From Micromonospora wenchangensis (GTDB lineage: Bacteria; Actinomycetota; Actinomycetes; Mycobacteriales; Micromonosporaceae), in NCBI RefSeq assembly GCF_002210435.1, contig NZ_MZMV01000010.1:62001-126000 (forward strand): a DNA stretch of 64,000 nucleotides, given 5' to 3'. Position 1 is the first letter of the stretch. Every line of letters begins with the position of its first letter. This document shows, piece after piece, positions 1,849-54,230 of the stretch. A model generated the notes under the pieces. That model was given only the letters and a program-made list of their open reading frames with translations. It did not search any database and was not told the origin of the DNA. Position numbers and translations under genes: made by a program.

Positions 1849-2886
1849 TCAGATGGTCGACTGCCACTCCGTGGACCCGGCCACCGGCCGGAACCCGAGC
1901 TGCTCGTTGATCGCGATCATGTGGCTGTTCGCCGCCGCGTTGTAGGTGTCGACCGCGTTCAGCTCCGGCTCGTACGTCAGGGTGTGTTCGAGGTTCTCGG
2001 CCTTGCAGAGCAGGCCGAGCCGGCGCCCCCGGTGGGCCGGGTCGACGATGGTGATCTGCTGCCAGGCGTGCCGGGTGGTGTTCGCGGCCAGGCTGAGCAC
2101 GCTCCACGCGACCAGCCGGCCGGACTCCCCGTGCACGGCGGCGACGCTGTACCGGCGGACGCCCCGCGCGTCCAGCGCCCGCTCCATGCCCTGGATGCGC
2201 TCGGCGTCCATCCGCTCGGGTTCCCACTCCAGGTCGCCCAGCGGCGCGTCGGCAAGCAGCCGGCCCTCCAGGTAGGCGAGGTCGGCGAGGTGCTCCGCCG
2301 GCGGGTGGCCGTGCCAGCGGACCGTGCGGTACCCGGCGGCGGCCGACCGCGCCCCGGCCCGCAGCGCCGCCAGCCGGTCCCGGTCGAGCGCGGTGACGTC
2401 GAGCCGGCGACGGACGTCGACGAGCGCCGGCCGGGCGCCGAGCGCCGCCGCGAAGGCGGCCCCGGGGAACTCCCGCCCCACCGGCGTCGCCCCGGCCGGC
2501 TCGTCCGGCAGCGGGGTCACGGCGGAGCCGACCACCCGTTTGCAGCCGGCCTCCCGGAGCAGCCTTCGGGCGTGGGCGAACAACGCCCGCCCCACCCCGC
2601 GCCGCCGGTACGCCGGGTCCACCGCCAGCTCGATGCTGGCGTTCTCGGTGTTGTCCAGCAGGTGCAGGTTGACCCGGAACCAGCCGACGGGCACCCCGTC
2701 GAGCCGGGCCACCGACCACCTGGTGTCGATGCCGGGCATCGGGTGCCGCAGCGGCGCCTCGAACCGTCGCCGGCACAGCGGCGGGAGGTCGGGGGATTCC
2801 CTCGCCTCGACCGTGGCCGCGATCCGGTAGGCGGCGTCGAGGGTGGGCTGATCGGTCGGGTCGATCGTCGCGATGTCCAGGGCCAC
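1849..2886 (-). CDS. Tandem GNAT-family N-acetyltransferase
   Basis: The 345-residue product contains two GNAT acetyltransferase folds in tandem. The first has the acetyl-CoA loop DPAYRRRGVGRALF, and the second has the related VDPAHRGRRLGLLCKAEN. A conserved asparagine-rich stretch NAAANSHMIAINEQLGF near the C-terminus matches the end of a GNAT domain. The substrate is unknown. The architecture recalls mycothiol synthase but the sequence is not recognisably MshD. The start chosen is GTG at 2886, which keeps the protein clear of the perfect hairpin at 2913-2944 and begins at VALDIATIDP. A longer frame to an ATG at 3033 would translate the hairpin and is less likely. The stop is 52 bases before the paaN start on the same strand. 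Confidence 0.8.
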   Translation of the reverse strand: MALDIATIDPTDQPTLDAAYRIAATVEARESPDLPPLCRRRFEAPLRHPMPGIDTRWSVARLDGVPVGWFRVNLHLLDNTENASIELAVDPAYRRRGVGRALFAHARRLLREAGCKRVVGSAVTPLPDEPAGATPVGREFPGAAFAAALGARPALVDVRRRLDVTALDRDRLAALRAGARSAAAGYRTVRWHGHPPAEHLADLAYLEGRLLADAPLGDLEWEPERMDAERIQGMERALDARGVRRYSVAAVHGESGRLVAWSVLSLAANTTRHAWQQITIVDPAHRGRRLGLLCKAENLEHTLTYEPELNAVDTYNAAANSHMIAINEQLGFRPVAGSTEWQSTI

Positions 2887-2912
2887 GCCGCGAGTCTTTC
2901 CCGTGGACGACA

Positions 2913-2944
2913 CCGGGGGCCAGCGGATTTCCGCTGGCCCCCGG
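2913..2944. terminator. Perfect 15-bp hairpin upstream of the GNAT gene
   Basis: Arms 2913-2927 and 2930-2944 (CCGGGGGCCAGCGGA and its exact complement) are separated by two bases. The helix is GC-rich and lacks a clear U-run. On the minus strand it lies between thrC and the acetyltransferase start, so it could stop read-through from thrC or form an attenuator in the acetyltransferase leader. Which of these applies cannot be decided from sequence. Confidence 0.55.
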
Positions 2945-3143
2945 TTCACGTTGGTCGGGAGGGACGTTCGCACAACGCCTCCGGCGTTGGGTCGTAAGAA
3001 CTTAAAAAGTCTCCGGCGAAAGCCCTCCCGCACGGAGCATCTTCCGCCGTCCGGTTCCTGCCGTCAAGTCCTTCCCGACGGCTTTTCACCACCCACCGCG
3101 AAAACCCGGTCACTCAGAGATCCACTCGGACCGCCCTGCGCCG

Positions 3144-3219
3144 TGGTCGACACAACGGGGCCGAAGAGGCGGTGTCCCGCCGCGCAGACACCGCAACGCG
3201 CGCCCCGACGAGTCGATCA
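3144..3219. repeat. Intergenic hairpin repeat, copy B
   Basis: Imperfect 33-base arms at 3144-3176 and 3187-3219 share the half sites TGGTCGAC/TGATCGAC, CGGGGC and GCGGTGTC in the same order. It is the most degenerate member of a family also present at 14.75, 58.9 and 60.4 kb. It lies just 3' of the threonine synthase stop on the minus strand, the usual position for these elements here. Confidence 0.6.
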
Positions 3220-3273
3220 TCGGGGCGGCGGCGGGGCACGACGCGCGGCGGGCAGTGGGTGGCGCGCAGGGAG

Positions 3274-4560
3274 TCAGGAGAGGAGACCGGCGTCGCGGGC
3301 CGCCCGCAGGGACGGCTTGATCCGGTGGGTGGGGCCCACCTGACCGGCGACCGCGTCGATGGTCTTCAGGCCCTCGCCGGTGTTGAAGACGACCGTCTCG
3401 GCGGCCGGGTCGAGCCGGCCGGACTCGACCAGCTTGCGCAGCACCGCCACGGTCACCCCGCCGGCCGTCTCGGCGAAGACGCCTGTGGTACGGGCCAGCA
3501 GCCGGATGCCGGCGCGGATCTCGTCGTCGTCGACGTACTCCATCCAGCCGCCGGTACGCCGCACCGCCTCCAGGGCGTACAGGCCGGCGGCGGGGTCGCC
3601 GATGTTGAGGGACTTGGCGATGCCGGTCGGCCGGACCGGGGTGATGGTGTCGGTGTCGGCGTGCAGGGCGGCGGCGATCGGGTTGCAGCCGGCCGACTGG
3701 GCGCCGAACACCCGCCAGCCCCCGGCCGGGGCCTCGACCAGGCCGATCTCGACCAGTTCGGTGAACGCCTTGTCGATCTTGGTGAGCAGTTCGCCGGAGG
3801 CCATCGGGATGACCACCTGGGCCGGGATCCGCCAGCCGAGCTGCTCGGCCACCTCGTACCCGAGGGTCTTGGAGCCCTCGGCGTAGTAGGGCCGGACGTT
3901 GACGTTGACGAAGGCGGTGTCCTCGAACTCGTCGGTCTCCACCAGCTCGCCGCAGAGCCGGTTCACGTCGTCGTACGAGCCGTCGATGGCGACCAGGTCG
4001 CCGCCGTAGACGGCGGTGGTGATCACCTTGCCCTGCTCCAGGTCGCCCGGGATGAAGACCACCGAGGGTGCGCCGGCGCGGGCCGCGTGGGCGGCCACCG
4101 AGTTGGCCAGGTTGCCGGTCGAGGCGCAGGCGAACCGCTCGAAGCCGAGCGCCTTCGCGGCGGTGAGCGCCACCGAGACCACCCGGTCCTTGAACGAGTG
4201 GGTCGGGTTGGCGCTGTCGTCCTTGACCCACAGCGGCGCGCTGATGCCCAGCTCGGCGGCAAGGTTGGGGGCCGCCACCAGCGGGGTCAGCCCCGGGTCC
4301 AGGGTGACCCGGGTGGCCGGGTCCTGGCCGGCGGGCAGGAGGGCGGCGTACCGCCAGATGTTCTGCGGGCCGGCCTCGATCTGCTCGCGGGTGACGCGGG
4401 CCAGCGCGGCGGTGTCGTAGTCGACCTCCAGCGGGCCGAAACACTCGTAACAGGCGTGCTGCGCGGCGAGCGGGTAGCGGGCGGAGCAGGCGCGGCAGAC
4501 CAGGGCGCGGGCGGGGCTGGCGGCGGTGTCGATACCGGGGGCGGCGAGCGTCGACGTCAT
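3274..4560 (-). CDS. thrC: Threonine synthase with N-terminal zinc ribbon
   Basis: The 428-residue product is a fold-type II pyridoxal-phosphate enzyme. It would convert O-phosphohomoserine to threonine in the cytoplasm. A four-cysteine ribbon occupies residues 18-40 (CRAC then CYEC). The PLP lysine is visible in NPTHSFKDR, and the phosphate-binding region in STGNLANSVAAHAARAG. The start at 4560 (MTSTLAAP) follows AGAGGA at good spacing, and that ribosome site directly abuts the closing helix of a SAM-I riboswitch in the leader. Regulation by S-adenosylmethionine is therefore strongly suggested, which is unusual for this step. Neither homoserine dehydrogenase nor homoserine kinase is adjacent. 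Because the gene is separated from hom/thrB and controlled by SAM, a related PLP reaction in sulfur metabolism cannot be excluded. Confidence 0.88.
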   Translation of the reverse strand: MTSTLAAPGIDTAASPARALVCRACSARYPLAAQHACYECFGPLEVDYDTAALARVTREQIEAGPQNIWRYAALLPAGQDPATRVTLDPGLTPLVAAPNLAAELGISAPLWVKDDSANPTHSFKDRVVSVALTAAKALGFERFACASTGNLANSVAAHAARAGAPSVVFIPGDLEQGKVITTAVYGGDLVAIDGSYDDVNRLCGELVETDEFEDTAFVNVNVRPYYAEGSKTLGYEVAEQLGWRIPAQVVIPMASGELLTKIDKAFTELVEIGLVEAPAGGWRVFGAQSAGCNPIAAALHADTDTITPVRPTGIAKSLNIGDPAAGLYALEAVRRTGGWMEYVDDDEIRAGIRLLARTTGVFAETAGGVTVAVLRKLVESGRLDPAAETVVFNTGEGLKTIDAVAGQVGPTHRIKPSLRAARDAGLLS

Positions 4561-4570
4561 GTCGATTCCT

Positions 4571-4702
4571 CTCATCTTTCCCCGCATCGCACCCTGCGGC
4601 GGGGACGGAATTGGCACCTGCCCCGCCGGACGCTCAGCGATGAGCGCGCGGGGTGGTTGCCGGGGCGTCGTCGGGCCGTATCCCTCAGCCCCTCTGGATG
4701 AG
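4571..4702 (-). promoter_or_regulatory. SAM-I (S-box) riboswitch in the thrC leader
   Basis: Read on the minus strand, the leader shows the S-box landmarks in order. They are CTCATCCAGAGG (5' side of P1 and the kink region), GAGGGATACGGCCC, CCCCGGCAACC, the core GGTGCCAATTCC, and the closing GGGGAAAGATGAG, whose GATGAG pairs with the initial CTCATC. The 3' strand of P1 runs straight into the ribosome site (GATGAGAGGA), 9-10 bases before the ATG. Ligand binding would stabilise P1 and mask part of that site, so translational repression by SAM is the simplest reading. Confidence 0.9.
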
Positions 4703-53865: not shown

Positions 53866-54230
53866 GCGTGGTGCGAGGTCAGCATAGCGACTGACGTCGG
53901 GAAATCCCGGCCGGCAGGGTGCCCGAGCATGGAAAACGTCAATCCCACGCCCGCGCCGCCGACGAATCGACGCACCGGAGCCCCGTCAGGCGAGGGGATT
54001 GATGCCCGGCCGTGCCCGCCTGACCGAAATGCGTATGCCGTCCGTCCCACTCGGTGTATCCCGTCTTGGCACAGCTGGAAATCCCGTTTACCGTGCAGTG
54101 ACACGGATGACACCCGGGGTCGGTCAAGGCTGCCTCCGGATGTGGTCCGCGGGTCGGCACCGTGGGTGCCGACAGCTCCTTCACTCGGATCGTCCGGCAC
54201 GTTCCTGCCGGTGAAAGGAAGCGCACCACC
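53866..54230. other. Promoter region of the msiK-like gene
   Basis: No protein gene is evident. On the plus strand TTGGCA (54066-54071), a 17-base spacer and TACCGT (54089-54094) make a good sigma-70-like promoter. The leader then runs about 135 bases to the start codon, with GAAAGGAAG as ribosome site. Confidence 0.5.
54066..54094 (+). promoter_or_regulatory. Sigma-70-like promoter of msiK
   Basis: -35 TTGGCA at 54066-54071 and -10 TACCGT at 54089-54094, separated by 17 bases, match actinobacterial vegetative promoters. It is the best-defined promoter I found in the window. Confidence 0.5.

Follow-up and report, generated by a model that had tools for sequence, protein, structure and literature searches.

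Why should a riboswitch that senses SAM stand in front of a gene named threonine synthase? The locus lies near one end of a 64,000-nt stretch of the Micromonospora wenchangensis genome (the window). The initial annotation placed an S-box element there at positions 4571-4702 and remarked that high SAM would then lower threonine formation, the opposite of what pathway balance predicts.

A complete SAM-I aptamer

A SAM-I (S-box) riboswitch aptamer (RF00162) is detected by Rfam cmscan on the minus strand at 4704-4569. The match covers the complete model (positions 1-108) and scores 72.8 bits (E 4e-15), where the gathering score is 44.4, confirming a full-length SAM-I aptamer. The element first annotated is this match without its outermost two positions on either side, which are unpaired in the Rfam alignment, and the complete S-box core claimed for it is borne out by the fit of the whole aptamer to the covariance model. 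The minimum-energy fold includes P1 to P4. Since the stability of this fold as a whole is unremarkable given its composition (z -1.74; 12 of 200 shuffles were equally stable), the evidence for an S-box is the covariance-model score together with conservation, rather than fold energy. A chance match is ruled out by the full-model score and conservation. In S-box RNAs, SAM stabilises P1, and the 4704-4569 aptamer presumably binds SAM. The Rfam search found no other S-box in the 7.5 Mb genome. Elsewhere in the window, an msiK RNA motif (RF01747, 50.6 bits) lies at 54168-54226 on the plus strand, with a tRNA nearby (53865-53792, minus strand).

The riboswitch most likely shuts off translation

The two strands of P1 are CUCAUC (4697-4702, minus strand; placed by the Rfam alignment and the fold) and GAUGAG (4571-4576, minus strand; placed by the fold and a comparison of leaders). 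The last base of GAUGAG opens a Shine-Dalgarno-like GAGGA (4571-4567, minus strand, read from the sequence), which is spaced six nt from the AUG at 4560-4558. P1 had been described as lying beside the ribosome site, and the two in fact share this base. Between the aptamer and the start codon of the next gene, which encodes a 428-aa PLP enzyme, there are 8 nt. Because this distance leaves no room for a terminator, control should be translational and OFF, and because P1 abuts the ribosome site, SAM should shut translation off. We conclude that the S-box most likely acts on translation in the OFF direction. Compared with SAM-I riboswitches in general (RF00162), the M. wenchangensis aptamer is complete and scores well over threshold, but its P1 directly abuts the ribosome site and no separate expression platform is seen. 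For Xanthomonas, SAM-I control that is mainly translational has been described (PMC7270179).

We compared 61 leaders, namely that of M. wenchangensis and the 30 best-scoring loci each from the family and class searches, a sample that is biased to good scores. All six P1 pairs are possible in 61/61 leaders; the sequence of P1 varies in eight, on both sides in one (L036). The Shine-Dalgarno-like word begins within P1 in 46 of the 61, as counted with a permissive pattern and without a chance control. In a folding model without ligand, P1 is already formed (probability 0.80-0.86). When the 5' strand of P1 is barred from pairing in this model, G4568 is freed (0.26 to 0.76), G4571 and G4569 are not, and for A4570 the value falls (0.84 to 0.36), so that one Shine-Dalgarno base of five is clearly freed. 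The on/off contrast at the ribosome site is therefore unproven by the folding model. That the ribosome site as a whole is not clearly released when P1 is barred is also the one observation we found in favor of an ON-type switch, an option raised in the initial annotation. Against it, P1 in the compared leaders reaches up to or into the ribosome site, and the 8 nt between aptamer and start codon again offer no space for a terminator. We consider an ON-type switch extremely improbable.

The downstream gene is most likely metM

The gene behind the aptamer (3274-4560, minus strand) encodes a PLP-dependent enzyme of the threonine synthase family (P0001, 428 aa; Pfam PALP, 214 bits). Family models call it threonine synthase: it scores 242 bits with TIGR00260 (thrC), passing the cut-off of 167.1, and with NF006050 it reaches 283 bits, under the cut-off of 303. 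However, a Streptomyces-type MetM also passes TIGR00260 (267.9 bits), so this model does not separate ThrC from MetM. According to passages of PMC12172450, Hasebe 2024 identified the Streptomyces MetM as a homocysteine synthase, the metM of S. albulus has a SAM riboswitch upstream, and the S. albulus metO belongs to the sulfur carrier family.

P0001 is 60% identical to the Streptomyces-type MetM and 60-82% identical to MetM of other genera and families; identity to its M. wenchangensis paralogues is 38% (ThrC, on contig C7) and 35% (on C1). A quick tree of 89 rows set MetM apart from both paralogues, which sit on very long branches, and in it family f1 formed one group (support 87). This tree took in 87 of the 113 MetM rows, leaving out same-genome or near-duplicate loci, rows shorter than 300 aa, and L107. 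The words NPTHSFKDRVV, STGNL, and ASG are invariant in 111/111 MetM rows (each a locus, with some genomes contributing more than one), and at those sites the M. wenchangensis ThrC and three solved ThrCs (PDB 2d1f, 1uim, and 6cgq) have NPTGSFKDRG, STGNT, and GNA. P0001 shares with these ThrCs its fold family, the PLP lysine motif SFKDR, and the expected substrate. It does not match the ThrC active-site words NPTGSFKDRG, STGNT, and GNAGN, carrying NPTHSFKDRV, STGNL, and ASGEL instead; that is, it has H rather than G before SFKDR, L rather than T after STGN, and ASG rather than GNA. Its N-terminus also contains a CxxC...CxxC stretch, and these CxxC motifs are not in the M. wenchangensis ThrC.

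By these sequence comparisons, P0001 is the orthologue of the Streptomyces MetM, and the label "threonine synthase" is most likely wrong, with homocysteine synthase as the candidate function. Of the initial reading, a SAM riboswitch controlling threonine synthase, the riboswitch stands, while the threonine synthase gives way to a gene in a separate, MetM-matching clade with fixed active-site differences. The reservation made at the time, that the enzyme might have a sulfur-related job, was well placed.

Threonine and methionine genes elsewhere in the genome

M. wenchangensis has two further clear relatives of P0001. One is the other thrC (C7; 377 aa; TIGR00260, 309.7 bits), directly behind hom as identified by Pfam, with a lysA-like gene there too (by eye); roughly 6.5 kb from it, the same strand of that contig also carries thrB (194.5 bits, cut-off 168.25). 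The proposed search for a second thrC, next to hom and thrB, thus turns one up behind hom, and the possibility that the S-box gene is the only threonine synthase of the genome, raised at the same time, is rejected. The plant-like activation by SAM that had also been brought up found no support, as the genome has this other thrC with thrB, and the S-box gene matches MetM. The other relative (G000 C1:216970-218118, L024; 395 aa) is a third threonine-synthase-like protein with a cysteine-rich N-terminal start (NF006050, 604.5 bits).

A search for an acyl-homoserine route to methionine came up empty: there is no metA in the M. wenchangensis genome and no recognisable metX, the best match of 24.3 bits being noise. 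The genome does encode proteins that match the models for cystathionine gamma-synthase (G000 C8:62272; NF005871, 664 bits, cut-off 513) and cystathionine gamma-lyase (578 bits, cut-off 440).

metM and the S-box are linked across the Micromonosporaceae

The family sample consisted of 101 genomes, M. wenchangensis and 100 drawn from the Micromonosporaceae. The S-box was found in 96 of these and MetM in 95 (E<=1e-100). An S-box lies upstream of 95/95 MetM genes on the same strand; measured in coordinates to the residue where the alignment starts, the offset is 9-265, with a median of 24. There are 103 S-boxes in the 101 genomes, and the eight that are not at metM comprise seven second S-boxes and one in G030, a genome without MetM. 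In G030, the S-box precedes metX (NF006449, a succinyl-type model, 422.6 bits, cut-off 296) and metB (TIGR02080, 565.3 bits, cut-off 504.55), and the row (L193) continues with a hom-like gene that scores below its models' cut-offs. An amino-acid-type ABC transporter, a candidate methionine uptake system, stands behind the second S-box in both loci inspected (L211 and L212, two of the seven). In the class, MetM was detected in 193 of 296 genomes (E<=1e-80) and the S-box in 202 of 296; these are separate tallies, not gene-by-gene pairs.

For metX, we used a threshold of at least 420 bits. The TIGR01392 cut-off of 500 was passed by 0/101 genomes and 0/14 controls, with Corynebacterium glutamicum falling below it, so TIGR01392 is no clean test by itself. 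At our threshold, metX-like genes occur in 29 of the 101 genomes, 27 of these among the 95 with MetM. Matches to metA were found in three genomes of 101, one of them partial and in a MetM genome. Neither metX nor metA is present in 66 of the 95 MetM genomes (G043, which has a 129-bit metX match, was also set aside). Six genomes lack MetM. Of these, metX occurs in G005 and G033 and, as part of its operon, in G030; metA occurs in G033, with a fragment of it at the edge of a contig in G059; and neither gene turned up in G097 or in G063, which is 77% complete. This distribution fits a role of MetM as the usual entry to homocysteine in the family. It should also be noted that our searches found no S-box, MetM, metX, or metA in G097 (99% complete, 3.4 Mb), which is possibly a methionine auxotroph.

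metO is not found behind metM in the Micromonosporaceae

Our Streptomyces-type set was the best 80 of 580 relatives, 79 titled Streptomyces and one "Actinobacteria bacterium", with the Streptomyces-type MetM first in the query. Among these best 80, the Streptomyces-type orthologue is 88-96% identical to named Streptomyces, 80/80 loci have a carrier gene no more than 600 nt behind metM, and a simple S-box pattern is present in 74/80. An Rfam scan of ten of these 80 loci, including one of the six pattern misses, found an S-box in 10/10.

The place that metO takes in these loci is filled in M. wenchangensis by an ORF for a GNAT acetyltransferase and by non-coding sequence (1849-3273, minus strand), assessed with PF02597, a local carrier HMM, and Pfam. 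No sulfur-carrier gene was found near metM: the whole-genome PF02597 search gave no match on this contig, which rejects a metO hidden behind metM, and the local carrier HMM found none. Farther downstream on the same strand are csp and groEL, in the same arrangement that follows metO in the Streptomyces-type locus L163, and between metM and csp lie the GNAT gene (Pfam) and paaN (863 bits). The M. wenchangensis locus therefore resembles the Streptomyces metM-metO locus in its orthologous PLP enzyme, its upstream S-box, and the csp and groEL farther downstream (L163 by eye; L032 by Pfam), but differs in that metM has no metO behind it, a GNAT ORF and paaN come before csp, and CysO, the putative carrier, is encoded at a different locus.

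The same holds for the family: metO was found behind metM in 0/56 genomes examined, out of 95 with MetM. The 56 comprise 36 genomes with at least 5 kb downstream, M. wenchangensis, and 19 with 0.5-1.5 kb downstream. Nor was metO found in family f19 (0/25 loci, with downstream sequence of 30 to about 1,490 bases). For 20 other families, each with one representative, a carrier gene is behind metM in 14; the match begins at the metM stop or overlaps it in 9 of these 14 loci, and in the others it starts no farther than 106 nt away. No carrier was seen in six: L153, L159, L162, and L170, plus L156 and L166. The downstream DNA of the last two extends just 2.3 and 1.2 kb, and because it is so short they were dropped from the count of metO states on the tree. 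Having metO behind metM characterises the Streptomyces locus rather than the enzyme.

CysO as a possible sulfur carrier for MetM

Four carriers in the M. wenchangensis genome exceed the PF02597 cut-off, none of them on the metM contig. CysO (G000 C1:200697-200969, L213) is encoded between a PALP gene (cysM-like) and a JAB-domain gene (mec-like), ThiS is in a thiamin-like locus (by eye), and a third carrier is beside a MoaA-like gene. The fourth (G000 C4:56727-56987, L026; 102 aa, with a short tail after GG) is in a cluster that by eye resembles secondary metabolism. A CysO orthologue (E<=3.3e-35, 63-100% identity) is present in 97/101 genomes, that is, in all 95 with MetM and in G005 and G097 without it; none was found in the MetM-less G030, G033, and G059, and G063 has a weak match. 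The association of CysO with MetM (Fisher p = 3.7e-6, which ignores phylogeny) rests on six MetM-less genomes, two of them of one genus (G033 and G059) and three less than 90% complete. As many family genomes carry further, less similar carriers, CysO is not the sole candidate everywhere.

A precedent for an enzyme borrowing the sulfur carriers of other pathways is BexX of Amycolatopsis, for which carriers are shared from primary metabolism (Sasaki 2014, via passages of PMC4784017 and PMC11323500). BexX belongs to secondary metabolism, whereas the proposed borrower in M. wenchangensis is the methionine pathway. Going by gene distribution, the case that CysO is the sulfur donor of MetM appears evenly balanced. 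We likewise give an even chance to the broader proposal that in the Micromonosporaceae, and perhaps in f19, the methionine pathway dropped its own carrier and uses CysO, such that one carrier, together with its machinery, serves the synthesis of both cysteine and methionine and the methionine branch alone is under SAM control. Alternatively, the Micromonosporaceae MetM could use free sulfide or another donor with no carrier protein, as the 56/56 family genomes lacking metO behind metM might suggest. We find this rather unlikely given that CysO accompanies MetM in 95/95 genomes and is absent or weak in 4/6 without it, and that the sharing of carriers is known from BexX.

The CysO protein extends 8 to about 40 residues beyond GG in 10/10 family loci (L213, L214-L222), and the solved M. 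tuberculosis counterpart (3dwg_C) ends at GG. A tailed CysO would need a processing step, perhaps by the neighboring JAB-domain (mec-like) protein.

Proposed mechanism and alternative explanations

We consider it highly probable that this SAM-I riboswitch turns off translation of metM, encoding an O-phosphohomoserine-dependent homocysteine synthase, as end-product feedback. When SAM is plentiful, the aptamer would be bound and P1 (CUCAUC/GAUGAG) locked, blocking the ribosome site at the last P1 base; when SAM is low, P1 would open and metM would be translated. MetM would then take O-phosphohomoserine, which is also the substrate of the C7 ThrC, and add sulfur to form homocysteine, and the switch would close the loop as homocysteine is converted to methionine and SAM. 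In the Micromonosporaceae-like relatives, the sulfur would most likely come from the shared CysO of the cysteine pathway, and less likely from free sulfide.

Two other explanations retain the riboswitch and assign MetM a different role. The gene could truly be a second threonine synthase, through which SAM adjusts how much O-phosphohomoserine goes to threonine and how much to methionine. The family models give it that name, with TIGR00260 over cut-off, and passages of PMC12172450 report that a cyanobacterial relative, 51.6% identical to the S. albulus MetM, made some threonine in vitro and had threonine deaminase activity, and judge that it does not fully function as MetM in the cell. SAM riboswitches on the aspartate-family gene hom are also reported in Bacillota (passages of PMC12452182, in which the thrC rows are T-box). 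However, the other thrC adjoins hom, the active-site differences from ThrC are fixed, the S-box is linked to MetM in 95/95 cases, and in the MetM-less G030 the S-box precedes metX, metB, and the hom-like gene. A second threonine synthase is therefore very improbable.

Homocysteine could instead be formed by the cystathionine gamma-synthase-like protein (G000 C8:62272), leaving MetM some other role under SAM. This protein is over its NF005871 cut-off (664 vs 513 bits) and, by analogy with the plant enzyme, could in principle use O-phosphohomoserine; a review describes transsulfuration as the Streptomyces route. Loss of metO could also mean that the chemistry of MetM has changed. Yet the gamma-synthase-like gene has no S-box in M. 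wenchangensis, whereas MetM has one in 95/95 genomes, and the chemistry of MetM is reported for S. albulus (passages of PMC12172450). We judge this route quite improbable and favor MetM as the homocysteine synthase under SAM control.

Implications

In a partial search of the open literature, we found nothing beyond PMC12172450 on a SAM riboswitch before metM in actinobacteria and no description of a metM variant without metO, most subscription papers being outside its scope; the passages of PMC11356490 and PMC13257386 that were covered do not contain MetM. Feedback on metM by a SAM riboswitch, of the kind described for Streptomyces, is thus known already, and the missing metO behind metM in the Micromonosporaceae seems to be new. 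As the sampled family keeps MetM and the S-box, with metO not found behind metM, it provides a natural test of sulfur-carrier specificity. With a gene that matches the methionine-pathway MetM, an OFF switch would be end-product feedback, and the apparent paradox of a SAM switch on threonine synthesis, by which high SAM would lower threonine, is removed. Genes named thrC behind an S-box in the Micromonosporaceae are very probably misnamed methionine genes.
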